A stretch of 64,000 nucleotides of DNA from Cephalotus follicularis (Eukaryota > Streptophyta > Magnoliopsida > Oxalidales > Cephalotaceae): the NCBI GenBank assembly GCA_001972305.1, contig BDDD01000042.1, positions 69,880 to 133,879 on the forward strand, read 5' to 3'. Of this stretch, positions 6,043 to 61,732 are shown in pieces. The notes under the pieces are model-generated. The model saw nothing but the letters and a program-made list of their open reading frames with translations, did no database searches and was not told where the DNA came from. Position 1 is the stretch's first letter, and each line of letters starts with the position of its first letter. The translations under genes were made by a program, and so were the position numbers.

Positions 6043-6197
6043 CGCGTCGATGTCTTTGGAAAGACGTCGACGCCTATGGTAACCATGGTACACATGAATG
6101 CATGTACATGCACATCGATGTAAGGTAAAGACATCGACACCTTCTGGTAAAAGAGGAAAAGACATCGACGTCTAAGGAAAGACGTGGACGTCTTTGT
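6043..6197. repeat. GTCGAC palindrome cluster 1 (Tekay-1 LTR, upstream block)
   Basis: Several copies of the AAAGAC-RTCGAC-GTCTTT type: GCGTCGATGTCTTT, AAAGACGTCGACGCC, ACATCGATG, GACATCGACACC, AAAGACATCGACGTCT, AAAGACGTGGACGTCTTT. Copies differ mainly by G/A at the CpG position. Confidence 0.85.
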
Positions 6198-6940
6198 AAA
6201 GAACATCTGTCACGATTAACACTGACAGAGTAACATGCAATGGACAATTTTTGAGGCAGCATCCAGACGCCTTGACATGCTCAATGCGACGTGTTGATCA
6301 TGCTGGTGTGTTGCCAGGCATGCTCAAAACGTGCCCCTCACCTGGTGCATGCAAGAGAATATACCAACTTACACCTGCAACCTGCAGAAGGGAAGGAAAT
6401 TGGCCAAAACCAGAGAGGGAGAAGGGTGAGCATGAGAATGTGTGGTTATCTGTGAAGCAAGAGAGAAGGGGAGGGTTCCTGCCATGATAAAACACCTCTT
6501 CCTTCCTCTCTCTCTCAGCTAAAAGCAGTGAGAAAGAGAAACAGTGAGTAGAAGAAAGTGAGAGCCACCATTGTTGAGCTTGAGTGGAGCTAGAGACTTG
6601 GAGCTCGTGGGTAGCAGTTGCTAAGAGGATCTTGGAGCTGCTGTGGCCAGAACCTGGGAACTCAAAGAGGTGGACTTTCAAGTTCCTAACTTGGAACAAC
6701 AAGGTAGGGGAAAGTGATAATCTTATACATGCATTTTAGGTTTTAAGTTAGTGAATACCATGATGAATTACATGTTAATGGATGAATTGTGATTCTGGAC
6801 TTGTTGTGATGACTAATGTGGTGTACGGAGTTAACATGCATGTGTAAATTACATGAATGTGTGAACTGGTTTATGTAAAGGGAGATTTTGATGATGGCCT
6901 GCTGTGTTTAACTATGGAGAAAAAGTTCTAGGTTGGATAA

Positions 6941-7345
6941 ACGTCGACGTCTACAAGAAGACATCGATGTCTTCGTGTGTGGATGAAAAAGACATAGATG
7001 TTTGAGTAAAAGCATCGACGCCTTTTCTGGGAAATCATGGGACTGAAATGTTTACTGCAGATGGCGAATTAGCCACTTGGGATTACCTGTTTAATTACGG
7101 ATTCATGTTCTGGTTACATATCCCGATAACCAGTAACATTTCTTACGCCTTGAGAGGTTAAGTTTTGCCTATATGAAGATTTAGGAGCTGGATTCTTCCC
7201 TCCAGAATCCAGACTCGCGAACTGATACCTCATGGTATCATAAAGAAATCGATATCTATGGAAAGGCATCGACGTCTTTGGTCCAGAAATGCCTGGGAAT
7301 AACTGTACATGGGATCAACACCTTAGGGTAAAGACGTCGACGCCT
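6941..7345. repeat. GTCGAC palindrome cluster 2 (Tekay-1 LTR, downstream block)
   Basis: ACGTCGACGTCT, AAGACATCGATGTCTT, GCATCGACGCC, then from 7247 AAATCGATATCT, GGCATCGACGTCTTT and AAAGACGTCGACGCCTT. It is positionally equivalent to 39020-39430 in the Tekay-2 LTR. Confidence 0.82.
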
Positions 7346-8590
7346 TAGGGATAGACATCAAAGCCTATCCCCCTGTTTGATGGAATTTCACTTGAATGGG
7401 ACCCGTTAGATCCAAAACGAACCTAGGAACGATCCTAGATGCATTCTGAGCATATGTTTGCATTATTACTATGATTTGCATTATGGATGATTTCTAAAAA
7501 GTGTTAACCAATTTGAAAAGGTTGTATGATTATTATAATCATTTTGTACGAAAATGTATATTTGTCAACATATGAATATATATATTTTCGAAATGAATGG
7601 GGAAAGTATTTTCCAATGACGGAGAATTGTTTTAAAGGATTGGTTACACAATCAGATGTATTGTTTTAAGTTTTATAACTTATCACAACTTGTGAACGGA
7701 GTAATATATTTTGAACAAATATATTTGATCAAGTAATTATATTTTATTGCTTGACTTGTACTGTGCAATGATTGTGCCTGTTGATTATTAGCAGATGTGC
7801 TAATAACCTGTTAATTACTTAGCCACTGTGCTAGTAACCTGCTGTTGGTTTAGCAGCCATGCTAAAAAACATACGGAGGACTTGCTCCAAACCGTTCGCA
7901 AACAGGGATGGGGTAAAAGTGCATAACGTTGGGGCCAGGAGGTGGCAACAGTCATGACAACTGGCTTGTCTGGTTCCTTTTGGAACATTTTACTGCCTGT
8001 GTTGATATAGCCTTATGAGGTTATACCTGTATTATGAGCATGCATATATTTTTATATGTACATACGGGGATGAAATTACTGTGAAAATTACATGTCATGC
8101 TGCATCATAATGCATTCATCCATGATACTCATTATCATATGACTCGAACTATATTTATAAGTTTATTCACTTAACCGAGTGAGGACAAAGGCTAACCCCT
8201 ACTGTAACAGATTGATGGAGTGGATTTGACACGGAGCATGCACGGAGACTTAGAGAGAAGACAGTGTAGTTTCTCTTATTTCTTGTACTGGGTTAATGAA
8301 CTTTGGTCATGTTGTTGGATTATTGTAACAAAGGTTATTTTGTTATTTTGTACTGTATCATCACGCTCCGTTTTTGGGCGATCGACTATGATGTTGGGTT
8401 TTATTATGAACTTGTTGGGTATCACGTAGTATGGGATGCGTGATACATGTTTTGATTCAACTTATATCATGTATTTGCTTCCGCTACTGAAGATTTTGTT
8501 TATAAGTTTTATCGCATGATCTGAATTGTGTTCTGTTGGTTGCCTTACCACTTTATATGTTGTCCTAATGTGGAAACAGGGGGCGCGACA

Positions 8591-9036
8591 CTATCATTCA
8601 GGCACCGATTTGGACTGAGCCTTTTGAGATCATGTGTGACACGTCAGATAGTGCAATAGGAGCTGTTTTCGGTCAAAGATTAAATAAATTAACTCACGTC
8701 ATTTACTATGCAAGTAGGACCATTTCCGATGCACAATTAAATTACACGACCACTGAGAAGGAGTTTTTTGCTGTGGTCTTTGCCCTGGAAAAATTCAGAT
8801 CGTACCTTTTAGGATCACAAGTCATTGTTTATACTTATCATGCTGCGATTCGTTATCTAGTGGGTAAAAAGGATGCAAAAGCGCGTCTCATCCGTTGGGT
8901 TTTTCTACTTCAAGAATTTTACGTGGAAATTAGAGATAAGAAAGGGACTGAAAATTTTGTTGCCGATCACTTGTCCCGCTTCTCCAATGTACCCGAGTTC
9001 AAGTGTCCGATTAGCGAGAATTTTCCTGATGAGTAG
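8591..9036 (+). pseudogene. pol: Athila-like RNase H, truncated by Tekay-1
   Basis: Homology begins immediately at the Tekay-1 LTR edge, in mid-domain. It reads through [11 protein letters not shown] (catalytic Asp), [11 protein letters not shown] (Glu), a [10 protein letters not shown] segment where Ty3-type enzymes usually have an Asp before the His (FTDH), so that Asp is replaced by Tyr, and VADHLSRF (final Asp). The sequence [16 protein letters not shown] is typical of Athila-lineage elements. It ends at TAG 9034-9036, one transition from CAG. Confidence 0.88.
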
Positions 9037-11456: not shown

Positions 11457-11671
11457 TATTTGTTTAGCATAAAAATATGTTGTTTTTAATGATTTATTTG
11501 TGATATTTTTATGCTTTGAATAGACTACTTTGTTTGTTCTTAATTGGTTTTTAAGTACAAGAGCAAGAAGATTAAAGTGAAGAAAAACCAGTTGAAATTG
11601 GCGCAAATTGAAGAGAAAAAGATTAAAGGTTGAAGACTTGTAAATTAGCAATTTTCTGCAGAAAAACAGAG

Positions 11672-11962
11672 CAAATCGTCGACGCTTAAGAGGAAAGCAC
11701 CAAAAGTTAAGCTAGAGGCATCAACGCCCTAGCTCAGAAGTTTAAAAATCAAATGAGACATGTAAAGTGTCGACGCATTGCTTCTAAGCGTCGGCCCTCA
11801 GCTCACATATTCTTAAGCGCTGACGCTTGATAAAATACCATCGACGCTTAACACTGCAATTCAACTATTCACGTCAATGCTCAACACTTAAAATTGCGCA
11901 TCTCAGTTTATGAAAAACACCAAAGCGTCGACGTGCAAGACGAAAGCCTCGACGCTTACGAC
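11672..11962. repeat. GTCGAC palindrome cluster 3 (Athila-like LTR, GCTT arms)
   Basis: Copies of the AAGCGTCGACGCTT type: TCGTCGACGCTTAAG, GTGTCGACGCATTG, AAGCGCTGACGCTT, CCATCGACGCTTAA, AAGCGTCGACGTGC, CCTCGACGCTTACG. They end about 85 bases before the TATA box, i.e. in the probable U3. Confidence 0.8.
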
Positions 11963-12289: not shown

Positions 12290-13700
12290 CATTGATGTAT
12301 TATCTAGGTTTGGCACGTATACTTACCCTAGACCTCAATCGGGGCCAAATATGACGAGAGATTATAGTACACGTGAACCGACGACTCAAAAAGTCTCGCG
12401 TTATGGTGGTGTGTAATAAATTATGAGAAAATTAATTAGATTAATTTTTCATTTGGATAATATTGCATATTAGTCATGAAGAATTTTAAATAGGTTTGTG
12501 ACTATTTAGAATGACTTAACCGAATCCTAGGGGTATTTCAGTAATTTATGAATACCACCAATTTTAACCAGGATTTTAAAGGGTCTCTACCCGATAATGA
12601 TTTCTTCATAAATATGTTGAACATATTTAGTCTTGGTGACAATTATAAAATCAAATATTTGTTAGGTGGATTTTGCGAATTGCGTCATCGTGAAATGGTG
12701 ACATATTCGCTTAATCTTATTTAATTAATATTCGAAGGGATATGTAGCATCACTTAAATGGGTAGGAATTATTTATATGATGTAATGGCTAAATTATTGG
12801 AGAATTGAAATGTGGCTTTGTTGCTTATTAGTTTTGTAACATTTGGTATATGAATAATACTAAATTGGACATGTGTCATAAGAGAATTATGAGTAGGACT
12901 CATAATTACTCTTATCTAGCAGGCCATAACACGAACGTGTTCAGCTTGTCTAAGCATCGACGCCTTTTGCGAAGGCGTCGACGCTTAGTGCCACAATTCC
13001 ACAACGCCACGACGCCACAGAAACGTGGGCATTCCATTTTCTCCCACTCTAGCCATTTTCTCCTTCATAGAGAATAAAGGGGAGCACATCGGCAGTATGC
13101 TGAGTGGTTTTCTTAGAGAAAACTGCATGAAAGAATGTGAGGTGGTGTCATGTGCGAGTGTATGACAATTACGTCAAAACAGGGAACAAAAGCGCTGGAG
13201 CTTAGACTTAGCGTTTTCACTCTGCAATCCCTTCACCGATTTTGTTCACCAAGCTTGAAGCTAACCTAGGGTGGATTGTAATTGACAACTCTTGTCAATT
13301 TCAATGCTCCATTTGTGAGCATAGTGAGTATATAGAAAAATAGAGTCTGTTTTTGAACAACAACGGCCATTGACATTTTGGAGCGTGGTGCTTGGAGCAG
13401 CAAGTTCTTGATCATTTGGAGAGATTAAAAGCTTGGAGATTCAGAGGCAATCTACCCAAGCTTGTACCGGCAAAGAAGAATGAGCCATTACGATTTGGTA
13501 TGTCCTGCTATCCTTCTCTTTGTTCTTAGTGCATCACAATTGCATGATTGTGTGATGCCAATTCAAGTATGAAATGATGTGGGTGTTCCTTGGACTTCTT
13601 CTTGCTGAAATCGGAACTATTATAGTAGTGGTGTAAAGGGTTTTAGCTTTCGCTGCCCAAACCAAAAAAATTAAAATTTGTCCCCTTAACACCCTGTGTC
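12290..13700 (+). repeat. LTR-like fragment F1 (forward)
   Basis: No ORF of note. Landmarks: GACGAGAGATTATAGTACACG (20-base part 12353-12372), the segment around 12495-12605 with AATGACTTAACCGAATCC and CTAGGGGTATTTCAGTAATT, a GTCGAC hairpin at 12951-12988, and a leader-like stretch to about 13500 ending in a donor-like TTTGGTATGT. About 300 bases are repeated in reverse at 14840-15130 (F2). Probably part of a Ty3-type LTR; lineage unknown. Confidence 0.55.
12951..12988. repeat. GTCGAC hairpin in F1
   Basis: TAAGCATCGACGCCTT and AAGGCGTCGACGCTTA face each other across five bases (TTGCG), giving a 16-bp stem with one mismatch. This is a hairpin made of two GCTT-arm palindromes. Confidence 0.85.
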
Positions 13701-17725: not shown

Positions 17726-18785
17726 ATATATGCAATCAAAGGCAAATAAATAAAATAATTAAAGAGAGAGAGTAAGAGAGTTGCAAACACGGTTTTAGAG
17801 TGGTTCGGCTTAACTCTTGCCTACGTCCACTTTTCCCAAGGATCTCCTTGAGTTTTCACTAGTCTCCGAATAAATTTGCAGGCGCTATTCGGTGCACCGT
17901 TACACTTTGTTCGTGATTGACCTCAATCACTTACAATCTTTGGGTTCACTCCCCTATTACAATAAAGGTTTACAATAAAAGATTTGTGTTTGAAACTTAA
18001 CCTCTCAAAGGTTGGATTTTACAAAATAATAGCTCTCAAACTAATATGAACAAAGATAGGCTAAGGCACAAAAAGAACTTTGATATGAAGCTTTGATGAT
18101 CTTGGTTGCTCTTGTTGTGATTTGAATTGATTGATCTTTTGTATATTTGTTCTCTTGTATTCTTGTTGTGTTGTTATTCTTGTTCTCTTTTGAAATGTTG
18201 TGTTTATAGACGTTTTTGTCTTGAAAGATCCGTTGGTTGTGTCTTGGGGCTTGTTGCTTCAAAGACGGCGCATTAAAAAACTGCCAGAAATTGTCTCCAG
18301 TGCGCAAAGCGTCGACGGAGTTCTTCAAAGCATCGACGCTTATATGACCGTTGGAAGTTTGAATTTGAATCTTTGCTCTAAGTGCTGACGGTCTTGAATT
18401 TTGGGGTCGACGGTTTCCCTCAAAGCGCTGATGGTTTGTGTTGAGCATCGACGCTTTGGGCAATTTTGATTGGCCCAAAAGTTTCTGTTTTTAACCGCTG
18501 ATGTAGCCCTCTTAAGCGCTGGCACTTAGCCTCAAAGCGCTGACGCTTTCCTCAAAGAGTCGACGGCTTGGACAATTTCTCCTTTACTTGAAATGCTCCA
18601 TTTGTTGGCGCTTTGTACCCAGCTTTCGACGGTTTCCCAAAGCGTTGACGCTTACTTCCAAAGCGCTGTATCTGCAATTTTCTGGTTTGTTTTGCAACAT
18701 TCTTTCTTTACTTGCACAAAAAGAAACATTGTTAAAATATAATTATGTTATCATCAAAACTAGGGTTGAGACATAAATGTCAACA
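17726..18785 (-). repeat. Reverse SIRE-like solo LTR inside X
   Basis: The reverse complement begins TGTTGACATTTATGTCTCAA at 18785 and follows the SIRE-like LTR at 20800-22077 in block order: the TTTTGATGATAACAT start, then a TCAATCACGAAC block, then GGACGTAGGCAAGAGTTAA and AACCACTCTAAAACC. The flanks ACTGT (18786-18790) and TCTGT (17721-17725) may be the target duplication. The left edge is uncertain because the final LTR bases are diverged. Its palindromes have GCTT arms, unlike those of the full SIRE-like element. Confidence 0.75.
18305..18670. repeat. GTCGAC palindrome cluster 4 (SIRE-like solo LTR, GCTT arms)
   Basis: AAGCGTCGACGGAG, AAGCATCGACGCTT, AAGTGCTGACGG, GGGGTCGACGG, GAGCATCGACGCTTTGG, AAGCGCTGACGCTTTCC, GAGTCGACGGCTTGG and AAGCGTTGACGCTT. 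Many copies have TCGAC changed to CTGAC or TTGAC. Confidence 0.8.
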
Positions 18786-18973
18786 ACTGTTCATAACACC
18801 GGTCAACATATGATTAAAAAAACAACTTATTCAATTGACAGAATCAAACTCCTAAGTGATCCTCTGATATAGGGTAACTCTCTCATCACACTTGCCCCAG
18901 ATGCTCCTGATAACCTACAGCATGGAAAACAAAAATGCGGCTGAGCAAACCTCAGTGCAGATATAGTATAATA

Positions 18974-19100: not shown

Positions 19101-20918
19101 TTTTACGAAAACAGAACAATTTATAAATAAACTAAATTTATGCAATTCAAATGGTGTTCATGTCAAACATATATATATATCGGTTCACAAACATTTATAA
19201 AGCATATATATGTTTTAGTTCATATCCGATTCAAAAATTTTCCAAACCAGTGTTTCATATTGAGCTATGCAATATGGTTTAAATACACACACATATATAT
19301 ATATATATGCAAGGGATCCTGCAGAATCCACATGCTCGACGGAACGACGTGTACGGCACTACAATCAATTCCAAAAATCCGAATCCGATCATAATTTATC
19401 ATAGGGCCGACCCATACGCCTCTATCCGAAATATCACACTCAGGTTAACAGGACATGTTCCCAAAACACCCGGGGACACGAGCTCTGCCGGGGATGACAC
19501 ACCAGCCAACAACCCTCCAAACCAAAACCGCCTAAGAAAAGCGTCGAGCACTAGGCTCCAAGCGTCTAAAACCCAAAAGCCCGACCTGAAACGCCAGGGC
19601 AGAGGACACGCGATACAACACAGTTTCCAAGGAAAGGGCTGAGGACTCAAAGAAAACTACTAGGAACCCAAAACGCCCTGTTTCACTTAAGCTTGGGGAA
19701 CCCACATGCGCCTCGTACGTGCTCACCCAAGCACCAAGTCCTACAAAAAGCCCGAGGAGCCAAACACTACAACTCCTCACCTCGGCTATAACAACAAAGC
19801 ACTTGGGCCTCAACATGAACTAGGCATCCGTGGATATCCAAGGAACCAAAATGCCCGAGGACACCAATGTCCGAGGACACACACACACCATGGTTCTAGG
19901 CAAACCTCACGTCCAAGGACTTCCATCTAACCTAATGGTCGGGCTTCTATTTCCTAGGACCAGGGTCATGCTCGACAATGACCATGATGGTCTGGCCTCC
20001 CGTCGGGGAAGCCTTTCGTGCACCTAGGTGACATTTAAGGTCAACAGAGCCCAACCACTATCTCCAAACGTATCATACATCCATGTCTTATCACGGGAGC
20101 TCGGGACTAAGGTCTAAACAACCTAAAACCACAAGCATCAACAAGGATAAAGATAAACAAATCGCCATATCATAAAAGAATAAACCTTATACACCAAAAT
20201 TCATCCAAGGGTTCATATACAAGATTGTTACAAAAGATTTCAACAACCCAAAAGCAAAACCCAAAAGATGTCCCAAATGCATGAAGGGAACTAGCTGAGA
20301 AGGCCAGGGGAGAAGTAAACTCCTCGGTCTACCTTGTAACGAGTCCTTAATGTGGTCCGACACGAGGAAGACTTCACCTGCTTCCTCAACTGCAAAACAA
20401 CAACCTGGGAGGGGATTAGTCCATAGACTAGTGGGAAAGGAAAGAAAGCATTCCTCAGTGCCAGGGGAGAACAAAGCCCTGAACAACAACGGCCATGCCC
20501 CAGCTGGGCTCACAAATCTAGCACAGCTCATCACCCGAGCATACTCAACAAGAATCAAAAGAATATTGGAGTATATAACTAAACAAAAGATAATAAAATC
20601 GATAATGTTGAGAACAATAAGGAGAGAAAAGTAAAGCAACTATCCAGACCAAATATCCCGAGGACCCAAATAAAGGATCTAGATTCCAAGGATCAAATTG
20701 ATCAGAGGAATACTGGTACCTGTCACCTTGCCCAAACCACGTTGACCTTTCACCTCAGCCATAAACCATACATCTACTGGCGCCGGATTTCATGGCAACT
20801 GTTGACGATTTAGTCTCAATCTTAGTTTTGATGATAACATATTTGCATTTGACAAGTTTACTTAATGTGCAAGAAATTACAAGTTCAAATACCAAAGCAA
20901 AATGCCATCTGCAGAAGA

Positions 20919-21443
20919 AGACATCGACTCTCAAGAATTGACATCGACGTCCGTACAAGAAGACATCGATCCCTTCCACAAAGACATCGACGTCTTTAGT
21001 GCAAGATCAAAATACAATGAAGACATCGTCCTTCCAGTTATGACATCGACGTCCGTACCGAAAGACATCGACTACTTTCAAAATGACATCGACGTCTTTA
21101 GTCCCAGAAGCTACTGTACGAAATTGCAATTGAAGACATCGATCCTATATACAAAGACATCGACGTCAGTACAAAAGACATCGACGCCTTTCAATAGACA
21201 TCGACGCCTTTCTAGAGCTACCTGCATTTTCCCAGAAAATACATCGACTCCCACAGAAGAAGTCGATGTGATGTTCAAAGAGTCAAATGCTGGAGATTTC
21301 CCAGAAAAGACATCGACTCCTTTAAAAAGATATCGACGTCTTTTTAAATGAACAAGACCCGGGAAACCTGGAACGGCTAGTACACGCACTACAACGGCTA
21401 TCAACTACAAAGACATCGACGCCTATTCTAAAGAAGCCGACGT
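20919..21443. repeat. GTCGAC palindrome cluster 5 (SIRE-like 5' LTR, densest block)
   Basis: More than fifteen copies of GACATCGAC/GTCGAC units in about 520 bases, e.g. AAAGACATCGACGTCTTT at about 20980-20998 and 21400-21430. Direct repeats and half-palindromes alternate. The cluster ends about 95 bases before the TATA-like sequence, within the probable U3. Confidence 0.9.
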
Positions 21444-21538
21444 CTTTATGTCAGCAGAAGACAAATTCAAAGATTGCAACTACACATTATTAAATCAAAA
21501 GCTTCCATGAATTTATGCAACGGCTACAAATCTATTGT

Positions 21539-21550
21539 GGCTATAAAAGG
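21539..21550 (+). promoter_or_regulatory. TATA-like box of the SIRE-like 5' LTR
   Basis: GGCTATAAAAGG downstream of the palindrome block; also present in the 3' LTR (about 26541-26552). Plausible LTR promoter from position and sequence only. Confidence 0.6.
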
Positions 21551-22079
21551 AAGATTGAAACCTCAGAAGAAGAACAACAATTTAGAATTATTCACATCAA
21601 TCACACAACATCAAGAAATTTCATATTCAAGTATTCTAGTGTGCAAAAAGCTCAAAGTGCTCCATAGTGTTCTAACAAGCTTCTAAGCTTTACTCTTTGA
21701 GAATATCTGAGTGTTTCATATTGAGAGCTGTATTTTTCATACCTACCTATTTGAGAGGTCATCTTGTAAACACTTTTATCAATACTTGTAAAAGAGGAGA
21801 ATCCTCTAAAGGCTTTGAGGTCAAGGTCTTGTGATTGAGGTCAATCACGAAGTTGTAAGGTGTAACGAATTGCTGCCTTAATCAATTCGAGATAGTGGAA
21901 ACTCAAGGAGCTCCCTTGGGAAAAGTGGACGTAGGCAAGAGTTAGATGAACCACTCTAAATTTTGGGGAAGGTTTTCTTTCCTTGACTCTTTATATTTAA
22001 AGTTTTTAAATTTCCGATATTTACTTCAATATTCAATTCACCCCCCCTCTTGTATATTGCACAAGTGTTTTATTTCAAT

Positions 22080-22090
22080 TGGTATCAGAG
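22080..22090 (+). other. Primer binding site of the SIRE-like element
   Basis: TGGTATCAGAG starts two bases after the LTR end, complementary to the initiator-Met tRNA 3' end. Confidence 0.9.
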
Positions 22091-22134
22091 AGGTTAATCT
22101 TATTTCTTAATTGTTAGAGATTACAAAGATCCTT

Positions 22135-22998
22135 ATGGAATTGAATATGTCAAACAAGGAAAGCATATCCATCTCAAAGCCTCCATTTTTTGATGGAAAC
22201 AACTATAGTCATTGGAAGGCAAAGATGACTATATTCATTCAAGCTCTTGACTTCAACCTTTGGGACATCATCATTGACGGCCCAGAACTTCCTCACATCA
22301 TCTCGCAAGAAGGTATCAAAACCCTCAAACCGAGAAGCTCATACACGGATGATGATCGAAAGAAGGTACAATTGAATGCCAAAGCTAAACATGTAATTAT
22401 ATGTGCTTTAAATTCAAATGAATTCAATAGAGTATCAACTTGTGTTGCCGCAAAAGAGATGTGGGATAGATTAGAGGTTACCTATGAAGGTACCAATCAA
22501 GTCAAGGACGTAAAAATAAACATGCTTGTAAGAGAATACGAAATGTTCTCCATGAAGGAAAACGAAAACATTTCCGGTATGTTTGTTAGATTTACAAATA
22601 TCATTAATTCCTTACAATCTTTGAATAAATGCTATACTAATAGTGAAATGGTGAGAAAGATACTTAGATGTCTACCGAAAAGTTGGATGCCCAAAGTTAC
22701 GGCCATAGAGGAAGCTAAAGACCTCAACACCTTGCCGCTTGAAGAACTTCTTGGATCACTCATGACACACGAAATGACCATAAAAAATCATGAGGATGAT
22801 GAAGAACAAGATAAAAAGAAGAAGAAAGTCAATGCATTTAAGTCCTCTACACCGGACTCAAGTGATGAAGAAAGTGACGATGAAATGGCTTTAATCACAA
22901 GAAGATTCAAGAAGTATCTAGCTAAGAAAAAGTTTGGGAACAAACATTTCAAAAAGACATTCCCATCAAAATCCGAAACAAAGAAGGAAGAATGTTAA
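22135..22998 (+). CDS. gag: SIRE-like gag
   Basis: 287 residues from ATG 22135; a second ATG at 22147 (MSNKES) is also possible. It is a Ty1/copia gag of the UBN2 type: PPFFDGNNYSHWKAKM near the N-terminus, CALNSNEFNRVSTC, KEMWDRLEVTYEGT, then LVREYEMF and an acidic, lysine-rich C-terminal third (DDEEQDKKKKKVNAFKSST). The expected zinc knuckle is absent because the frame stops at TAA 22996-22998, where the pol deletion joins RNase H sequence in another frame. If translated it could still form or join particles built by intact relatives. No internal stop. Confidence 0.88.
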   Translation: MELNMSNKESISISKPPFFDGNNYSHWKAKMTIFIQALDFNLWDIIIDGPELPHIISQEGIKTLKPRSSYTDDDRKKVQLNAKAKHVIICALNSNEFNRVSTCVAAKEMWDRLEVTYEGTNQVKDVKINMLVREYEMFSMKENENISGMFVRFTNIINSLQSLNKCYTNSEMVRKILRCLPKSWMPKVTAIEEAKDLNTLPLEELLGSLMTHEMTIKNHEDDEEQDKKKKKVNAFKSSTPDSSDEESDDEMALITRRFKKYLAKKKFGNKHFKKTFPSKSETKKEEC

Positions 22999-23242
22999 GG
23001 ATGTATCTATTAAGTGTGATAATACTAGTAGTATATGCCTTGCTAAGAACCCAGTCCATCATTCTAGGACAAAGCATATTGACATTAGATACCATTTCTT
23101 AAGAGAACACATAGAATGTGGTGACATCGTTTTAGAGTATATTCCCACCGAAAAACAAGTGGCGGATATTTTCACCAAACCCCTAGATGAGAATTCTTTT
23201 TCTAAGTTTAGAAGAGAATTAGATTTGTGTGAGCTTGAATGA
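22999..23242 (+). pseudogene. pol: SIRE-like RNase H C-terminal remnant
   Basis: The last approximately 80 residues of Ty1/copia pol: CDNTSSICLAKNP, HSRTKHIDIRYHFLRE, YIPTEKQVADIFTKPL, ending at TGA 23240-23242. It follows the gag stop directly in a different frame. This marks the right edge of a deletion that removed protease, integrase, RT and most of RNase H, several kilobases in intact relatives. Confidence 0.92.
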
Positions 23243-23344
23243 TGTTTGAATGATATGTTTGATCGAATGCATATTTGATATGATGATTGTTTTTTGGCTA
23301 TTGTTTTGTTTTTGCTTGATTTTTTTCAGTACTGTTTTATAAAA

Positions 23345-23614
23345 GAGTCGACTTCTTTTCTGGAAATTCTATGCTTTACAAAATAACGTCGACTTCTTTT
23401 CTGCAAAAAAAACTTATGGCTTCTGAAAATCACGTCGATCTTCTTTGAAAAACATCGATCTCTTTGAAACACGTCGACTTCTTTTTAAACACGTTGATGC
23501 TTTTCAAAACGCAGGGTTTTCTGTATCGATTTCTTCCGTTCATTTAAAGAACGTATCGACTTCTTTTGAATCACGTCGACGTCTTTTACTCAGAAATCGA
23601 CTACTTCATAAAAT
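23345..23614. repeat. GTCGAC repeat cluster 6 (SIRE-like internal region)
   Basis: Between pol and ORF3: AGAGTCGACTTCTTTTCT, AACGTCGACTTCTTTTCT, CACGTCGATCTTC, CACGTCGACTTC, CACGTCGACGTCTTT, AATCGTCGACC. Here the unit is a GTCGACTTCTTTT direct repeat rather than a full palindrome. It is the only cluster I see outside an LTR. Confidence 0.8.
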
Positions 23615-23827
23615 CGTCGACCTCATATTCATTTCTCATTTTAACCCTACTTCTGTGTTTTCGAAAATTTTCTTCTCTTTTTGTTTTCTGTCAAAAATCG
23701 TTCTATTTAGTCGTAAACATCCTCTGAATCCTTCTCCACCTACAAAAACCTTTTTTCGTCTACTCCAATCCATCTATTTGTGTCATTCTCAGTGACTTCT
23801 CCTTGTGCTCACCAACTGTTTGTGAAA

Positions 23828-25787: not shown

Positions 25788-25801
25788 AAAAAGGGGGAGA
25801 T
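25788..25801 (+). other. Polypurine tract of the SIRE-like element
   Basis: AAAAAGGGGGAGAT immediately before the 3' LTR start TGTTGACG. Confidence 0.9.
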
Positions 25802-37965: not shown

Positions 37966-38080
37966 AGAATGGCCATCACGTTCTTCGTCGGCAGAGTAAC
38001 ATGCAAGGGGAATTGTTTAAGTCATGTGGTCGTACGAGTTGTGCAGTATTACGTGAACTTTTCCGTAGTCCATTTCGGAG

Positions 38081-43048: not shown

Positions 43049-43213
43049 TGTCGACACTTTACTGCTTTCAAAAACTGACCCGTCGACGCTTTCATGCCTT
43101 TAAACTGAGTAGCCGATGTTTTATACTTATGCTTTCTAAAACCGTCGACTCTTTTGTGTGTTAAACTGAATAGTCGACACTTTACGCTTTTAAACTAAAC
43201 TAGTCGACGCTTA
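43049..43213. repeat. GTCGAC cluster 13 (Y LTR, GCTT/ACTTT arms)
   Basis: CTGTCGACACTTT, CCGTCGACGCTTTC, CCGTCGACTCTTTT, TAGTCGACACTTTA, TAGTCGACGCTTAG. Direct-repeat spacing is about 40 bases. Confidence 0.8.
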
Positions 43214-46326: not shown

Positions 46327-48451
46327 TTTTGGTTTTAGATTCTCTAGACTTTTAAAGTGAAATGTTTTCAAAAGGTTTTTAAACTCTTGCATATCATGCA
46401 TTGCATGTCATGTGTTCGGTAGCATGCCCCGTGGTCGGTAAGATGGTTCCGTTATGGATATAAATAGTAAGATATTTTATGGTTATCAGATAGACGTTTG
46501 ATGTAGAATTAGAGTAAGATATAAAAATTTTGAAACCGGAGATATTCTTGGATATCATCTTTTTGGCTAGTGGCCGAGTTAGTCGAGAGGACGTTATCTT
46601 TCCCCTAACACTTGATTAATTGATGTGTCCGAGCCAGAGTTCTAGCGGGCCATATCCGAGTTATTCTAGACTTTATGAGTTATCGGGCGCGATGTACGCG
46701 ACAGAACACCTTAAATGCATTGGAGAAACTACTCTATGGTTCTTGTATATGTTTCAAGATAGCATCATAGTGATGAATGGTTGACAGTGACGAATTATTC
46801 AAGAAGTTCAGGCAACCATTATAGTACGTTTTGTTTGAGTACTTAGTGAAATCGTTAACAGAGTACAACGAAGGATTTAGCCTATAAGGCTATGTCTAGA
46901 AGACATTATCTATTGTGGACGAATGTCGGCTATATGTAGATCCTTATCGACAGGGATTCGAGCCTCGAGCAGAGCTCGGTGGAGACGATTAAAGATTTCG
47001 ATTATGTTAACGAATACCCAAGGCAAACGTGATTATAGATGCTTTGAGCAAGAAGTTTTCTACTTCTCTTGCTATCTTCGGATGAGTTTTCCGATCATTG
47101 CACGTGATCCTATCAGCCTTACGCATGCGAGCTCTATCGTCTACTCTTCGGGAGAGATCGATATTGCAGGACCGGGTCAGCGATGCTCGGTGATAGAATT
47201 GTAACCGCATTGAATGCTCGTTTTGAGACAACGGAACGTTGATGTATGGGACAAGTTATGTTTGTCTCACGATGAAGCCGTCATACATAAGTTCTTGTGA
47301 AAGACATAAATCATTTTTCCGCAATACAACCTAATAGTACCAAGTGTGTCGTTGCTTGAGGGAGCACTTCTGGTAGAACAACATGAAGAGAAATATTGTA
47401 GTTTTGTTAACGAGATATTCAACATACCAGCAACTTAATGTGGAGCAATAACGAAACTTCAAGCAATTACAGCTGCTTTATAGTCTCTAGCGGAAGAGTG
47501 TGCTATGATTGCTGTGCCCTTATGCTGTTGATGCTAATTGTTGTGCGCTTGGCTGTTGCGTGTGCATCTTGATGTGCGCTCGTGTGCGTTTTATGCAGAC
47601 GATGCATTCGTTGTCCACACGATGAGTTGGTACGCATGCTGTTCTGTGCACTTTTTGCTGTTTGCTTGGTGATTGTGAACGCATAATGTGGTGCTTGCAC
47701 GAGGTTTATCTGCGAATTTATGTGCACGTTCTTCTGCCTGTGATTTACGTTTTGTACGCATGATGACGTGAGTATGTGCAACCTGCCTTCATGGTGCCTT
47801 GAGCTTGTGCATTTTGTACACGATGCTTCGATCGTCAGCCTTGATTATCCACACTAGGAGTTTTTACTCATTTTTACATCATGCCTAACGATGCTAGCAT
47901 GGGATTCTTTTGACGTTTCCACATATTTGACGTTGACTATTCATCGTTTTGAATTGTGGTTCGTCCAGATAACTTCTTGCTTGTATACGTACAGCGCTTG
48001 AGCGGGATTCTGATTGCGTGGCTCGGTTGGCTCCATATTGATTCATCGATCGATCGATACGCATGCCTTTTCAGGAGTGGCTGATCATGTAATAGTTGTG
48101 TGCTTCAAGCATACGTCGTTCATTCGATGTGTTGTGGGCTATTGGACATTTCTTGTGCAGTTGGATACGGAATATTAAATGGACATAGGACTTCGTTCCT
48201 TATTCGCTGTCCAAGTGTTGTCGCTTGACACGTATGATGTTCGTGTGCCTTGTTGACCCACAAACTTGCATGTTGGCTTCAATGCGTGGCTCATGTAGTT
48301 TTTAACATCATCTGAGAGCGTGTCGTGATGGACTTCATTATATGAACGACACGGACACAGCTAAGGTGCGATGCGATATAAGTCATACTGGGATGACCTA
48401 TCCAACGGCTCATTTCTGTCGATTCGACTCATGTATGATCTAGACTGTTTG

Positions 48452-48561: not shown

Positions 48562-48858
48562 GGGTTCCATACCTGGATCTGCGGCATACTATTGTCTATG
48601 ATGGTATGCTGAGTGTGAGTGCAGCAGAGCTGCTCCATTACCCTCCTATTGGACCGTATTCGGTTGCCGATTTATATATATTGCACACGGTCCCTCGGAT
48701 GAAGTTGAGTGTGCGTGCGGGTTTTTCGGACGATGGTTGGGTCCGTGCACTGATCATGCCGGCCCCTCGTTCGAGGCAGAGGTAGGCACTCTACACCGGT
48801 GTATGATGGATGATGATCACATCCTGTAGCCTTACCTAGTATTATTGCTGCAGCGGTT

Positions 48859-48951
48859 ATGATATGACGCCATGTGATTTGGCGGGGGTATGATATGACG
48901 CCATGTGATTTGGCGGGGGTATGATATGACGCCATGTGATTTGGCGGGGAT
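48859..48951 (+). repeat. 31-base tandem repeat, three copies
   Basis: Three almost identical units containing ATGACGCCATGTGATTTGG, in N. Confidence 0.92.
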
Positions 48952-49555
48952 ATGAGACAGTGAGATGATTGGTACCAGCATCCTCTTATATGTTTACGGT
49001 TCTTTGGGCACATTACATTTTTGATATTGATACTGTCATTGAGTTATGATCATATCGTTAAGCTTTGATATCCAGATATTTGTTATTGTTGTGACCTTCA
49101 TTTGTTTGATTATTGTTTTGAGTATGATATTTGTTCAGCGGACTTGTTGAGTCATTGGTTATTTTGCTGAAGTCTTGCTTTTGGGCTATTCATGATTGTT
49201 GATAACATCCGTGATTCTTGATATGTTTATGTACTCGGATTTCATTATACTTGGGGAGTCTTGAGCCTTGAATTTGTTCAACGGCACCTTCATCGTTGGG
49301 TTACGAGTTTCATTTATAAAGTTTATTACTGTCTATGTTCATATTATGGAGCCATTGTTGAGTATCAAGATTTTCTTCTCGGATTTCGTTTATACTTGCA
49401 TATCTTGATTCCTTTTACATTTGTGATTCTCATTTACATCGTGGACTTCATTTATATTGTGGATTTCGTTTACACATCGAGAACCTTGATAGCCCTTTGT
49501 GGTCTCGATATCCCTTGTAGATCATGGTTTGTTATGGATCTTGTTATCTTCGGTT

Positions 49556-51523: not shown

Positions 51524-51732
51524 ACAGTCGGCTGTCTATGTAAGCAATCGACATTTAGGCTTTGTGTAGTTGGCTGCCTTGTGAAATAGTCAGCTATTTT
51601 TCCTTGCACAGTCGACTGGACCCCTGTCCTAGTCGACTAGCTGCAGCCCAGTTTGTGTAGTCGGCTGCCTATGCTGTATAATCAACTGCCACCCTTTGAA
51701 CAGTCGACTGGATTTTGTTACAGTCGGCTGGA
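51524..51732. repeat. GTCGAC cluster 14 (Z LTR, CAGTCGACTG arms)
   Basis: ACAGTCGGCTG, GCAATCGACATT, TAGTTGGCTGCC, ATAGTCAGCTATT, ACAGTCGACTGGA, CTAGTCGACTAGC, TAGTCGGCTGCC, ATAATCAACTGCC, ACAGTCGACTGGA, ACAGTCGGCTGGA. The core is retained with a CAG..CTG arm not used in the related LTR X. Confidence 0.85.
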
Positions 51733-55081: not shown

Positions 55082-55892
55082 ATGTGTGTAACACCCTGAA
55101 CCCCAAATCTCCCCGAGATGCGAGTTATTACGCTCTATACTATTTAATCAGTCCTTTAGATTAGCATAAACATATTAGAATTTAACAAGAATTTAAAACT
55201 TTATGACATAACGCAGAAATGTTGCAATCAAATCCATTCAGTAATCTTAGCAAATTAACAATTGACACTCATATCTATCATACACTTGAAACTATACTAA
55301 TTATGTTACTGAGTACAATAATTGTCAATACAATACTACGCCTGTTACTCATTAAAATTACAAATTGCAAATACCACAGTATCTCTCTTCAAGAATATCC
55401 AAACCTTTTTGTATCTCTGTCTCATTTGCTAACACTCATATCCTACAAATCTACTATCTGTCCGGCAAACAACCCATAAGTGGGTCAATAATTGAGGTTG
55501 ACAGAAAAACCTTATATCCAGTGATGTGTACAGTATGTAACAGGTATATGCATGACATGGTATATGCATGAATGCCAATATGATCAATATCCATATGACA
55601 ACCATCCTGTACCAGGTGCATATGTGATAAGACCTAAATAGTCCAATCCTATTCACACATCTATAGCAGACAAGTAATAAAGTCGTCTAACAAGAAGATG
55701 TGACAGTCAAGATGTGACACCCTGCTTAAGAGTGGGCAAGAAAACAGAGCTCTCCATGAGATGAAGCCGCCCTTGTGACATGAATGAACCGGATCCATCG
55801 AAATGGGGAAAAGTATGGTTGTGCTATATAAGAAATGATCATAAAACCTAATCATATGAGGCGTCTTTTGATGATTGGTTGAGGAGTTAGTG

Positions 55893-55957
55893 GAAACTCC
55901 AAGGTTAAACATGCTACGCTCAGGGCACCAGGATGGGTGACCTCCTGGGAAGTCTGA
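55893..55957 (+). ncRNA. 5S rRNA-derived segment in Cassandra 5' LTR
   Basis: AACTCCAAGGTTAAACATGC, then CACCAGGATGGGTGACCTCC and TGGGAAGTC: the 3' half of plant 5S rRNA with the C-box intact and the A-box part changed. A TATA-like TATATAAG lies upstream (55825-55832). In Cassandra this segment is thought to allow RNA polymerase III transcription. Confidence 0.85.
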
Positions 55958-56135
55958 CCAATCCATCAAGTAGGACAAAACTGTGATGTACCACGTACGT
56001 GGGACAGAAGTCGAAAATTTCTTATGTGATTAAGGATCGGGTCATTATAATTGGTATCAGAGATGGACCCCCTCTAGTAGATGTAGTTCGGGGATGAACC
56101 AGACGGAAGCTGGTGGGCCTGTGACACCACGCTTA

Positions 56136-58763
56136 TGTAACACCCCGCGCCCGCAGGGCGGACACGTGGCATTACACTCAATCCAATACACAATACAATG
56201 TTCGGAACTAGCAATATAAAAATGTGGAAAACTTTAAAACTTTGCAATATATCTCATATGCGGAAGTTACAATATCAATGATCCATCCATACAATGCAAT
56301 ACAAAACAATTCCTTTACAATACTCGTCTTTTACAATACACTTATCAATATTTCAATATAGCATTACAATACAATACATTCCAACCTTTTCACTATAATC
56401 TCATAACCAGTCCTGCGGTACCCAATCAGTCATGCAATCGGACGAGTCTTCAATCACTGCTACCTGCTGCCCTACCTATGCCGCACACAAAGTACAACAT
56501 AGCCCCAACCCGAAGGATGGGGTTAGCCACACTGGCTAAGCAGAAACCCCATGCAGCATGTATGCATGTACAATGTGCAATATCGGTGACAACTATACAA
56601 TATCAATGTGCGGTGTACAATATCAATGCATGACATGGCAAATGCATGTGTATAGTTGGCGATCAAACTACCCGTATGACAATGGCCCATCAGAGCATAC
56701 GGATAGGATCGATAACAATCAATCAATCCATCATTCAATCCATCAATCAATAGCAGACATTCGATGGTGGTGTACAAAACACCCAATCAATCAATTGATC
56801 GATCAATATCCTATAGAGCATGCGACCGGTGTCACTACAATATCAATAAGTTAGCAATGATCAATCCCACGGGAGGTAGTCCTTCAAAAAGGGTGGGAGA
56901 TCTATCTACGGTTCTCAGACTGATCAGGTCTAAAACTCATAGATCTTCCAGCCTATGGCTGGGTCAATACAATCTCGATGAGCTACAACCGAGGAAGCTA
57001 CTGATACCGTTAGGGAGCTACGGCCCTCAAGGGAGCATCAATCGACAATCAATCGGTATCGCTCGTCAGCGGGTCAATACAATACAATAAATAAAACGAT
57101 CGACGGAATAGGTGGACAGAGTCAACAACCTAACCTGCCGACACGAATCACAAGGTCTCTCTATAGGATCCATACAATACAATCAATCAATCAATCAATC
57201 GAGTCAATACAATATAAGTAAAGTCAATAAGTGGTGGTGTCTAATGGAGAAATGGGAACGTGCGTCCATCGTACCGACTTAGACTCACAACAACACTAGT
57301 GACTCAAGCAATTGATCAATGTATCAATACAACGTCGAAGCAAAGTCAATAAGCGATGGTGCGTAATGGAGGGATGGGAACATGCGTCCATTTTACCGAC
57401 TTAGACTCACAACAACACCTATGATACAAACAATCAATTAATCAATCAATCAGTAGCCGCTAGGCGGTGACATTCGAATCGACGAAATAGGAATGAACAT
57501 CTATTCGGTCAATGAGAGTCACTGAGTCGTCACCTATGGCTCAAGCTGTCACTCTATCAATCAATCAATTCAGTCTTTGAAAACCATTGAAAACTATGTT
57601 TTAAACGCTTGAATATCTCAAGTGAGGTTCCGGTCAAGCGGCAATATGAAAAGGGTTGAAAAACCAGCTTTAACAGTTAAAAATTCCACTCAACCCGAAA
57701 GGCGTCGATGTCTTTAACAAAAGACGTCGATGCGTATCAGGGCATGCTTTTGAAAACAGTAGAAAGACATCGATGTCTTTCAAAGACATCAATGTCTTTC
57801 AAAGACATCGATGTCTTTCTCAATTTGGCCGAAGACATCGATGTCATTAGACAAAGACGTCGACGCGTTTCAATGAAAATGGCCTGGGAATGCGCATCGA
57901 TGTCTCACGTCGATGCCTTCTCTGAGGAAAGGCATCTCAAGCAAAAGACGTCGACGTCTTTCAAAGACGTCGATGTCTTTGCTGTGAAAACAAGGAGGCT
58001 GCATCCCAAAGCGAAAGACATCGATGTCCATGGGCAAAGGGATCGATGTCTTTGCTGGAAATGGCCGATTTTTCTACAGAAAACCAGCAATTTTCAAGCC
58101 AAAATCCAATCAAATCTATTATTTAAGAAACCAAGGGTTAAAAATCATTCTTTAAGGTTAGTAAAACTAATTACAACCTTCAATTTAACATTACAATCAT
58201 TCTATTAATAATTGGGTCAATGATTTACTAAAAACCCTAAAAATTCCAATTTCACTCAATACATTCAATTCAATCATTCAATCACTCAATCAATCATGCA
58301 ATTTAGTCAATCAATCAATAAAGCAATAGGCAATTCAGTAAAGAAGTCCTACCTATCACTGAAGCTTCAAAAGTTGAGCTTCCAATCAAACGATCGGCAG
58401 AAATCGCCCAATAATCCGCTACTTTCTTGTTCAATCGGTAAGCCACCACATGTAATCGGTTTCCTTGTTGAAGGAGCTGCAAATCCGGCTGCAAGAGAGG
58501 AAGATGGAGGCTCCAGCTAGAGAGAGAGAGGGAGAAGGGTAGGGAGAGAAGAAGAATGAGAAATATGAGAGAAATAATTGACTTATATAGTCGATTCGAT
58601 CAACTCTCCGAAAATCGGCCCAAAATCCCGACTATACATGCATACAACCAAAACAATCACAATAGGTATAGAAATACCTTAATTCAATACAATACAGTAC
58701 GATACAGTACAATACGATACGATGTATGCATGAATAGTACAAAAGGGAATTCGGGTCGTCATA
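56136..58763 (-). mobile_element. W: reverse solo LTR in the Cassandra 3' LTR
   Basis: Plus-strand start TGTAACACCCCGCGCC and end TTCGGGTCGTCATA (terminal CA mutated to TA). Perfect duplication GCTTA (56131-56135 and 58764-58768); leaving out W and one copy restores a 338-base Cassandra LTR. 2.6 kb. CAATCAAT-type low-complexity DNA at 56720-56800 and 57178-57200. ORFs here have no domains. Confidence 0.92.
57700..58055. repeat. GTCGAC palindrome cluster 15 (W LTR, GTCTTT arms)
   Basis: GGCGTCGATGTCTTT, AAAGACGTCGATGCG, AAAGACATCGATGTCTTTC repeated in tandem, AAAGACGTCGACGCG, AAAGACGTCGACGTCTTTC, AAAGACGTCGATGTCTTTG. Nearly perfect palindromes, reading the same in both orientations. Confidence 0.9.
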
Positions 58764-58934
58764 GCTTAAGAGTGGGCAAGGAGACAGAGCTCTCCATGAG
58801 ATGAAGCCGCCCTTGTGACAGGAATGAACTAGATCCATCAAAATGGGGAAAATTATGGTTGTGCTATATAAGAAATGATCCTAAAACCTAATCATATGAA
58901 GCGTCTTTTGATGGATTGGCTGAGGAGTTAGTGG

Positions 58935-58998
58935 AAACTCCAAGGTTAAGCGTACTGCGCTTAGGACACCAGGATGGGTGACCTCCTGGGAAGTCTGA
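58935..58998 (+). ncRNA. 5S rRNA-derived segment in Cassandra 3' LTR
   Basis: AACTCCAAGGTTAAGCGTAC, GCGCTTAGGACACC, AGGATGGGTGACCTCCTGGG: closer to 5S rRNA in the A-box part (GTTAAGCGT) than the 5' LTR copy. Confidence 0.85.
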
Positions 58999-59095
58999 CC
59001 AATCCATCAAGTAGGACAAAACTGTGATGTACCACGTACGTAGGACAGAAGCAGACAATTTCTCATGTGGTTAAGGATCGGGTCATTACACAAGA

Positions 59096-60027: not shown

Positions 60028-60236
60028 AATTAACATTAATATTATCGATTGCATCTTAAAGTGTAGAAAGAGTTTTGTATGAGATGAAATCTTTGAATAA
60101 TCAATAACATAATTAAATTACTGATAGTTGAATTAAATAATTTATTTGTTACATATAATGAGAAAGATGTATTTCGTAATATTGATAATGCAATAGCGAT
60201 GCAATACTTTAAAAAAATATAATTCGTCAATTAAAA
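60028..60236 (+). pseudogene. hAT transposase dimerisation-domain remnant
   Basis: Reading with frameshifts and stops: an SVERVLYEMKSLNNQ segment (near 60060-60105), then NNLFVTYNEKDVFRNIDNAI and AMQYFKKI up to TAA. This is the order of the conserved C-terminal hAT dimerisation domain (SVER..S.MK, then a VTYIEKD-type stretch). The catalytic part of the transposase is absent. Only about 70 residues remain, all broken. Confidence 0.75.
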
Positions 60237-60595
60237 CTGTAATATATTTTTAATATGTATTGAGAGTTTTTTTTTTATAAAAACAAATATTAGTAAGCTT
60301 AAATTTATTTTATTTATGTAGCTTGTCATATTTAAATTTTTTTCGTATATTAAATTATATATATATATATATATATTATATGTTTCTTAATTACTAGTTA
60401 TGTAACGATCGACCTAAATCACAGCTTTATCCCAGATAGAACGTACATGGCCCATATACCTATATTTACGTGAGACTTATAGTTTTGCCCTTATTGATAA
60501 ATTAATAAACTTATATGGGTTACTCGAGTAATGTTATGGACAGCAAACAAAAAACACAATAACTATAGCAACCGCTGATATATCATAACAAAAGT

Positions 60596-60720
60596 AACTT
60601 CACGTGATTAGGATGTGATCATATTGGTTTTGTTGATAAAACAAGCTTAACCTTGAAATTTTTACTAATTCTTTAGTCAATCCACCACCAAAAGGAACTT
60701 CACGTGATTAGGATGTGATC
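60596..60720 (+). repeat. Direct repeat pair, 26 bases
   Basis: AACTTCACGTGATTAGGATG followed by TGATCA occurs at about 60596 and again at about 60695, identical, within the hAT relic. Confidence 0.85.
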
Positions 60721-61490
60721 AGTTCATGTATAGCCTAATAACATTCTCTCCCTTTCCAGTGTGAGAAGGGCAAGAGAGGTTGTAACTTACCCTCGATACT
60801 CGCTGGCGTCACTATATCATGATGACTTCAAGAGGAGATTTTCCAAGTTATATATTGACCCCGCTAATTAAAGTTCCGAGCTCCGCCACTAGCATACTCA
60901 AATAGGAAGAAAGTCCTTCATTAGTCATACAAAAGGAGTTACATATAGTGTGCTTGAGTAAAACAGTGTCTGTGAAAGATCGAGCCATCATCGATGTACG
61001 ATGGAATGCTCAAGACAGTTGTAAAACTAGTTTAAAGTCGATATACGACAAGACAGCTAAGATCTTTTACAAAAAGAGTCTTTAAAATCATTAGTGGTAA
61101 AATGGTTTAAACGGTGCCAAGAGAGTCATCTCTTTTTATAGCCAACCATGGAAAAACAGTTAAAAACAAGAGAGTAAAACTCTCTCATAGCTGACTCACA
61201 GCAAAACAATTTAAAACCATTTATAAAACTTACCTAAAAGTGTTCCACAAAGAAAATAGTGGAAATGTTTATAAAGATATTTATTGGGCCTAAAAAGGCT
61301 ACCAAAAAAGAATCAGTAAGTTAAAACTATTTAGTTGAGGAAACAACTCTTTTCAGAAGTCAAAGGTTCGAGATCAAATCGTGTAAAACAATGTTTGATA
61401 AGTCAAACAAGGGCCTAGGAAAGACGATGAAAACCAATTCAGTAAAAGTTATTTACAATTGAAACAGTTCAGCTTTAAAGAATTTGTGGA

Positions 61491-61732
61491 AAGATATCGA
61501 CGCTTTCAAGAAAAGTATCGATACTTTTCTCTTCACAATAGTTATAGAGGTATGAAAAGCGTCGACGTTTTCAAGAAAAAGTCGATGCTTTAATCCATTG
61601 AACTTAGGGAATTACCTTTGAATAACGGCTACGTTAATGGGGAAAAGCGTCGACGTTAGTTCGTTAAATTCCCAGAACTTCAAAGGACAAGGCGAAAAGC
61701 GTCAACGTTTTCATAAAAGCGTCGATGCTTTT
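61491..61732. repeat. GTCGAC palindrome cluster 16 (V LTR, GCTT/GTTTTC arms)
   Basis: AAGATATCGACGCTTTC, AAAGTATCGATACTTTTC, AAAGCGTCGACGTTTTC, AAAGTCGATGCTTTA, AAAGCGTCGACGTTAG, AAAGCGTCAACGTTTTC, AAAGCGTCGATGCTTTT. Confidence 0.87.

Follow-up and report, generated by a model that had tools for sequence, protein, structure and literature searches.

Why should the long terminal repeats (LTRs) of unrelated retrotransposons carry the same short palindrome? The question is raised by a 64,000-nucleotide stretch of the Cephalotus follicularis genome (assembly GCA_001972305.1, contig BDDD01000042.1, positions 69,880 to 133,879, forward strand; hereafter the window), in which an earlier reading of the letters alone (the original prediction) had noted clusters of a palindrome with core GTCGAC or ATCGAC in about ten LTRs of copia and gypsy elements. 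We find that these clusters are arrays of a 16-18 bp palindrome with one TCGA core, three flank dialects and a helical spacing. The reading that we favor, at a probability of roughly two in three, is that they act as upstream activating arrays within the U3 region of the LTRs, and their palindromes would be sites for a family of dimeric DNA-binding proteins. To judge from the sequence, these proteins are probably host transcription factors. From the features described below we infer protein binding, activation of transcription, encoding by the host and the mode of array growth.

Abundance and form of the palindrome

The clusters in the window are real. Relative to first-order expectation, GTCGAC occurs 44 times (6.5 expected), ATCGAC 64 times (10.4), GTCGAT 23 times (10.9) and ATCGAT 36 times (17.3), so that RTCGAY cores are over-represented 2 to 7 times; the comparison hexamer TTCGAA was seen 14 times (20.3 expected). 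A recount of the window, together with profile sites, returned the cluster positions originally given. The proposed GTCGAC/ATCGAC core also stands, but not its length, because the true unit is 16-18 bp rather than a hexamer. Three flank dialects surround one TCGA core: alpha (GAC..GTC, in longer form AAAGAC..GTCTTT), beta (AGC..GCT; AAAGC..GCTTT) and gamma (CA..TG; CCA..TGG). Thus, some LTRs carry an 18 bp form, AAAGAC-RTCGAY-GTCTTT, others a 16 bp form, AAAGC-RTCGAY-GCTTT, and a third form, of the CAGTCGACTG type, lies near 51.6 kb.

With at most two mismatches, AAAGACRTCGAYGYCTTT has 112 matches on both strands of the window, compared with 0.03 in shuffles. Training a 20-bp palindromic profile on the window itself gives a palindrome of about 18 bp, and at a site threshold of 10 bits the profile identifies 114 sites, whereas Markov models of order 1, 2 and 3 give 1.4, 1.9 and 5.1, respectively. 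Since the profile was trained on the window, the independent figure is that from random genomic stretches, which hold 161 profile sites in 198 kb. This sample consisted of 20 stretches of 10 kb on contigs drawn by a seeded script (L118, L123, L132 and similar labels denote sampled genomic stretches), and 13 of the 20 contain a cluster of at least three cores. Across the 1,577,397,061-base (1.58-Gb) assembly, the 18-bp alpha palindrome AAAGACRTCGAYGTCTTT occurs exactly 51,413 times and the gamma palindrome CCAGTCGACTGG 14,615 times, versus 187 and 45 for their reversals, which match the base composition but turn CpG into GpC and so differ in CpG content.

The window and the 20 random stretches together provided a set of 51 clusters with 322 cores, a few of which clusters are probably due to chance; a run of three overlapping ATCGAT cores in the window (48045-48053) was skipped. 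Twelve other palindromic hexamer classes yielded 0-16 clusters each versus 51 for RTCGAY, and the highest of them, [AG]ACGT[CT] with 16 clusters, overlaps alpha sites. Chance or base composition as the origin of the clusters is ruled out by the window counts, the shuffles, the Markov controls and the random stretches. Exact matches to the 18-mer AAAGACRTCGACGYCTTT in a 257-Gb prokaryote collection (103 stretches, with one site each among the best 80 of the 103) and in viral contigs (10 stretches, a single site each) are taken as chance.

Carriers of the arrays

The arrays in the window and their carriers are as follows (ORF, open reading frame; PBS, primer-binding site).

5865-8592, forward strand: 3' LTR of Tekay-1 (Ty3/gypsy), assigned by LTR pairing, Ty3-type ORFs and the PBS after the 5' LTR at 1156; alpha arrays at 6039-6196, 6936-7026 and 7241-7348, with 11 sites above 10 bits
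11671-12989: putative LTR (Athila-like in the original prediction); beta-type block at 11671-11960 and a pair of beta-like sites at 12949-12989, which with only two cores stands outside the cluster counts
17770-18787, reverse strand: F1 LTR, with SIRE-type ends and approximate boundaries; beta array at 18311-18656
20801-22077, forward strand: 5' LTR of the SIRE-like element, assigned by a 98% LTR pair and the PBS at 22080; alpha array at 20916-21448
23340-23628, forward strand: internal array of the SIRE-like element, between the copia-type gag ORF and the PF20167 ORF (23717-25138)
25803-27079, forward strand: 3' LTR of the SIRE-like element; corresponding alpha array at 25918-26450
29219-30197: putative LTR; beta-type blocks at 29219-29452 and 30038-30197
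32460-33945, forward strand: 5' LTR of Tekay-2, assigned by its LTR pair and the PBS at 33947; alpha array at 32634-32792
37631-40760, forward strand: 3' LTR of Tekay-2; alpha arrays at 37805-37963, 39025-39065 and 39296-39426; gap of N at 38081-38616
43050-43215: putative LTR; block with five GTCGAC and partly beta-like flanks
51547-51708: putative LTR; gamma block of the CAGTCGACTG type, its flanks homologous to the gamma block L132:102-322
56133-58761, reverse strand: solo LTR, homologous to an L118 LTR that ends at its PBS; alpha array at 57697-58054
61489-61733: putative LTR; beta-type block with seven profile sites

Tekay-1, Tekay-2 and the SIRE-like element are LTR retrotransposons by their LTR pairs, by the PBS TGGTATCAGAG behind the 5' LTRs (at 1156, 33947 and 22080, respectively) and by gag/pol-type domains, although no pol was found in the SIRE-like element; the domains in the carriers are Retrotrans_gag, RVT_1, RNase H, Chromo and Retrotran_gag_2. 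ORFs of Tekay-1 encode a Ty3-type gag, protease, reverse transcriptase and RNase H, with an SH3 domain behind the integrase region, and those of Tekay-2 a reverse transcriptase, an integrase zinc domain, SH3 and a chromo match. Between the LTRs of the SIRE-like element (20801-27079), the ORFs of at least 150 amino acids encode a copia-type gag and a PF20167 protein, and the element seems non-autonomous.

As originally proposed, the arrays are present in both superfamilies, the same 18-mer occurring in copia-type (SIRE-like) and Ty3/gypsy (Tekay) LTRs. The proposal that the clusters lie in LTRs is borne out by delimited LTRs for Tekay-1, Tekay-2, the SIRE-like element, F1 (approximate ends) and the 57.7-kb solo LTR, whereas LTR membership is putative for the clusters at 11.7, 12.9, 29.2, 30.0, 43.0, 51.5 and 61.5 kb. 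The carriers do belong to several unrelated lineages, but we count about eight in the window rather than ten, with LTR status established for three (SIRE-type, Tekay and 57.7 kb) and with the blocks at 6.0, 6.9, 7.2, 32.6, 37.8 and 39.0-39.3 kb forming a single Tekay lineage. Of the 114 profile sites in the window, 78 are in delimited LTRs and nine inside the SIRE-like element, in its internal non-coding stretch; the other 27 lie outside delimited LTRs. None falls in the 11.5 kb of coding ORFs, where a single weaker site was seen (8.8 bits, at 22716); an equal motif density outside LTRs, looked for in coding sequence alone, was thus not found.

The LTR pair 45577-46313/49554-50299 (98%) has no site above 10 bits, and therefore arrays are not universal. 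A 31-bp tandem repeat (48858-48955; 3.2 copies, 98% matches) lies between the LTRs of this array-free element, and the 2.6-kb solo LTR splits a small LTR element on the opposite strand (55724-59088; 325-bp LTRs, PBS at 56052).

Separation of the flank dialects

Clusters that mix CG-flanked and CA-flanked sites are absent from the set (0 of 51, with 28.7 expected and a minimum of 22 in 1,000 permutations). The cores were classed as CG (244), CA (46) or neither (32) by a rule that needs one flank for CG and both for CA. Alpha and beta half-sites separate less strictly, with 11 minority half-sites versus 48.9 expected. Five further stretches, picked by hand, contain six clusters in four of the five, and none of the six is gamma. 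The purity of dialects is due in part to descent of sites within an array; yet LTRs without shared flanks share dialects.

The dialect can also differ at one LTR position. L132 contains a Tekay-type element whose pol, integrase and gag matches are 79-84% identical to those in the window; its LTR has two gamma GTCGAC sites and degenerate copies where Tekay-1, Tekay-2 and L125 carry alpha sites. Among SIRE-type LTRs, those of the window's SIRE-like element and L123 are alpha and F1 is beta, and the beta block at 11678 is grouped by its flanks with the alpha blocks L124:3779 and L129:2877. Outside arrays, ATCGAT followed by YCATACGCCTCTAT recurs in stretches that contain gamma arrays (L126:5377, L127:4520, L137:4624 and L137:8862).

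Helical spacing of the sites

Genome-wide, GTCGAC pairs were counted at three distances and number 105,145 at 21 bp (1,224 in the reversed control), 582 at 26 bp (110) and 44 at 10 bp (18), with absolute numbers inflated by copies of the same LTR family. The 10-bp count says little on phase because sites of 16-18 bp would overlap, whereas the 26-bp count is informative. Adjacent distances within clusters (n=271) fall at 19-22 bp in 125 cases, at 23-27 bp in one, at 28-32 bp in 27, at 33-39 bp in eight and at 40-44 bp in 25. For 109 spacings of 15-75 bp from 21 clusters, R is 0.614 at 10.5 bp; these clusters represent 20 of the 22 flank groups defined below, two of them coming from the SIRE-type group, and the groups of window 3027-3218 and L130:3101 are excluded. 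Without the 21-bp peak (spacings of at least 26 bp, n=55), R is 0.387 (p=2.6e-4). All-distance phasing is visible in alpha, beta and gamma clusters each (11 of the 51 clusters had no dialect label in the spacing and consensus analysis); beyond 26 bp, p is 1.8e-6 for alpha, with repeated copies of the same LTRs included, and 0.028 for beta. The five later stretches give R=0.55 (n=26).

A codon-driven period of 21 bp (seven codons) is ruled out by the spacings of 19, 20, 22 and 30-31 bp and by the lack of coding sites above 10 bits; the ORF spanning the SIRE array has no relative at E 10. A nucleosome or DNA-bend signal alone would leave the fixed TCGA core unexplained, and gamma arrays, which lack A/T flanks, keep the 21-bp spacing. 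In one LTR family (57889-57921; L118, L125, L142, L143) two cores recur exactly 13 bp apart, a distance that breaks the whole-turn rule and at which the sites overlap.

Promoter position and conservation of the sites

That arrays lie upstream of the TATA box holds for three SIRE-type LTRs but not for the 57.7-kb LTR or L119. The array of the SIRE-like 5' LTR at 20.8 kb ends 94 bp upstream of the TATA box (GCTATAAAAGG, 21540-21550), and arrays are likewise upstream of TATA in L123 and in F1, where CTATAAA lies 582 bp into the oriented stretch. In the Tekay LTRs, the TATA-like matches are downstream of the arrays, but they are A/T-rich runs and hard to interpret. Alpha sites have a preferred orientation, with ATCGAC outnumbering GTCGAT on the sense strand in 10 of 10 counted LTR stretches with alpha sites, derived from about three independent lineages. 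Strand-biased CpG decay as the source of this orientation is unsupported, the ratio of CG-to-CA to CG-to-TG being 28:31 in flanks and 17:24 in sites.

Between elements, the sites are better conserved than their flanks in 16 of 16 alignment rows (2076/2562 versus 7023/9812 positions, gaps scored as differences), and CpGs are retained at 214 of 282 in sites versus 77 of 182 in flanks. In contrast, within-element pairs show no difference in total (1093/1160 in sites versus 2418/2569 in flanks; CpG 92/103 versus 46/49), in a small control of three pairs, mostly young, of LTRs or LTR-like direct repeats (6 rows). This pattern fits selection in active lineages, followed after insertion by decay like that of other sequence.

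A proposed regulatory role for the arrays

Since each site is two-fold symmetric and 16-18 bp long, the binding protein would be a dimer, reading the TCGA core and the flanks of each palindrome. The whole-turn spacing, the void at 23-27 bp and the position upstream of TATA suggest proteins that sit side by side and act on the promoter; with two helical turns (about 21 bp), or nearly a whole number of turns, from one site to the next, the dimers would come to lie on one face of the DNA. Because sites are conserved between but not within elements, the arrays would appear to serve the active element, and selection may keep them as long as it is active, with short tandem duplication as the likely means by which they expand. 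The dialects point to more than one specificity, with paralogous proteins or specificity variants as the probable readers of the three. Convergent capture of a host-factor site, as put forward in the original prediction, is thus consistent with the phasing, the conservation between elements and the presence of arrays in both superfamilies, but not in its simplest form of one site and one factor: a single factor with one specificity does not fit three flank dialects that hardly mix.

Several observations weigh against this reading or leave room for another. Although the site-masked 250-bp flanks of the 51 clusters fall into 22 groups (E 1e-3), with SIRE-like and Tekay arrays in different groups, flanks of 1,500 bp (E 1e-6) chain 50 of the 51 clusters into one group. 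One inserted repeat with shared flanks, the case named originally as contrary, is therefore not found at 250 bp; the chaining at 1,500 bp runs through other shared sequence, including coding parts and neighboring elements, and module exchange by recombination is consequently possible. The only TATA-like match found in the 57.7-kb LTR sits upstream of its array, the TATA-like matches of L119 are A/T runs between two gamma blocks, and the relation to TATA is clear in SIRE-type LTRs only. Phasing at 26 bp or more is non-significant in gamma arrays alone (p=0.22, n=21) and in the five later stretches (p=0.11, n=13). Finally, the 16 between-element rows derive from eight alignments picked from BLAST matches, with overlapping members and both directions counted, while within elements sites still exceed flanks in four of six rows, and that control has little power because two of its three pairs are 94-98% identical overall.

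We tentatively consider an extended form of the activating-array reading, which is possible though less probable than its contrary. Paralogous dimeric proteins, encoded by the host or by elements and each devoted to one dialect, may control copia and gypsy retrotransposons in trans, and lineages may escape or change their controller by rewriting their arrays, as the gamma sites of L132 at the position of alpha sites in Tekay-1, Tekay-2 and L125 might illustrate.

Alternative explanations

An element-encoded factor that activates or un-silences elements in trans, similar to VANC, would make the dialects the marks of co-evolving element proteins, with the PF20167 protein as one candidate; we consider this the main rival, though an unlikely one. 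In the accessible part of PMC5735166, VANC21 binds a short motif that is densely arrayed and uniformly oriented in the non-coding regions of its targets, and VANC6 targets carry other tandem-repeated motifs. The Cephalotus arrays resemble this in being dense, oriented in alpha LTRs and unmixed in dialect, and one of them, the internal array at 23340-23628, directly precedes the PF20167 ORF and is a candidate second promoter, although no TATA box was seen in it. On the other hand, the same portion of that article describes the VANC21 motif as rare outside its own family, whereas the alpha site spans copia-type and gypsy LTRs whose elements differ in their ORFs. Moreover, Pfam (E 0.001) finds PF20167 alone in the PF20167 ORF and no known DNA-binding domain. 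This ORF has 332 relatives at E 0.001, of which the best 120 are all from C. follicularis with 73-93% identity. Read from 23828 to 25138, it starts with MPRTKQPAKKKG, which we take to be near the histone H3 tail sequence. RTKQ is present in 14 of 121 PF20167 proteins (the 120 relatives and that of the window), and variants with RTK or RSK occur in further full-length sequences; the resemblance may be chance or mimicry of the H3 tail.

Recombination or gene conversion could instead have copied one array module, of no selected function, between LTR families. F1 and the SIRE-like LTR have both ends in common (81% over 78 bp and 83% over 139 bp) but no blastn match within the array, which indicates that array regions are replaceable, and the chaining of 1,500-bp flanks agrees with such copying. 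Functionless copies, however, would not be expected to show phasing at three or more turns. In addition, sites are conserved above their flanks in every between-element row, and the masked 250-bp flanks separate SIRE-like from Tekay arrays. We consequently regard module copying as quite improbable.

The original prediction also raised host silencing. The sites would then be targets for sequence-specific repression or for guided DNA methylation. A repressor could in principle recognize CpG-rich sites in elements, but elements would profit from losing such sites, and here they keep and multiply them: CpGs are retained (214/282 versus 77/182), and the sites form arrays, upstream of the TATA box in SIRE-type LTRs. 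Silencing targets are therefore a very improbable explanation.

Host AP2-type CBF/DREB proteins, for which CGAC in one half of the core would be a stress element, deserve equally little credence: the low-temperature consensus (G/a)(C/t)CGAC is matched by GTCGAC and ATCGAC, and 279 of the 322 array cores have CGAC on at least one strand, but the remaining 43 are ATCGAT without CGAC, and the conserved unit in alpha and beta is a 16-18-bp palindrome rather than a hexamer, with a dyad that monomer sites do not need. ACGT, the core of bZIP sites, is held by those alpha copies in which GTC stands beside C, but not by alpha ATCGAT copies or the beta and gamma consensus.

If the arrays are activating, unrelated retrotransposons of one plant depend on the same regulatory grammar, a case of selfish DNA converging on one switch, and the arrays would give immediate access to whatever enables so many elements to multiply in a genome of 1.58 Gb. 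Where dialects differ at the same LTR position, it becomes possible to test for an arms race of element promoters with DNA-binding proteins. In addition, tens of thousands of equally spaced sites may pull a factor away from, or towards, host genes.

Comparison with known systems

Enhancer arrays in which sites follow the 10.5-bp turn of the helix are present in viral and cellular promoters, and the Cephalotus arrays share with them the whole-turn spacing suited to cooperative proteins. Unlike those arrays, the rule here spans many retrotransposon lineages of one genome. We found no description of such arrays in the literature searched, although one may exist in print: no paper matched GTCGAC combined with retrotransposon, a full-text search for the motif letters gave no title on plant LTRs among the matches listed, and the available part of PMC10794571 contains nothing on them.

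The targets of VANC proteins in Arabidopsis VANDAL elements, as far as the accessible text of PMC5735166 describes them, are similar in their dense non-coding arrays of short motifs, tandem repeats and lineage-specific motif types. Dense non-coding arrays are also what we find, in LTRs and one internal non-coding stretch. However, VANDAL encodes its own factor and the VANC21 motif is rare outside that family (PMC5735166, same portion), whereas here the two LTR superfamilies share dialects, and the motif is not confined to a factor-encoding family: alpha sites occur in the SIRE-like element, with its copia gag and PF20167 protein, and in Tekay, which is Ty3-type.

That LTRs of several families can carry clusters of factor sites is already known. 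The available portion of PMC5059998, whose title speaks of the recurrent evolution of heat-responsiveness, describes heat-response-element clusters in LTRs of the Brassicaceae COPIA families ONSEN/COPIA78, TERESTRA, ROMANIAT5 and COPIA37, and thus, as in Cephalotus, clusters of short sites across several retrotransposon families. According to that portion, the units there are nGAAn, bound by HSFA2 and found in COPIA families, whereas here a TCGA-core palindrome is carried by copia-type and gypsy elements, and at least three adjacent nGAAn units no more than 5 bp apart, as in ONSEN, are absent on inspection from the three dialect consensus sequences. Three dialects, a helical spacing and a count of GTCGAC pairs at 21 bp that exceeds 100,000 also set the Cephalotus arrays apart from the heat-element system. 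What appears to be new is the combination of one core in both superfamilies, three unmixed dialects, helical spacing, a change of dialect at one position and the scale on which the arrays occur.

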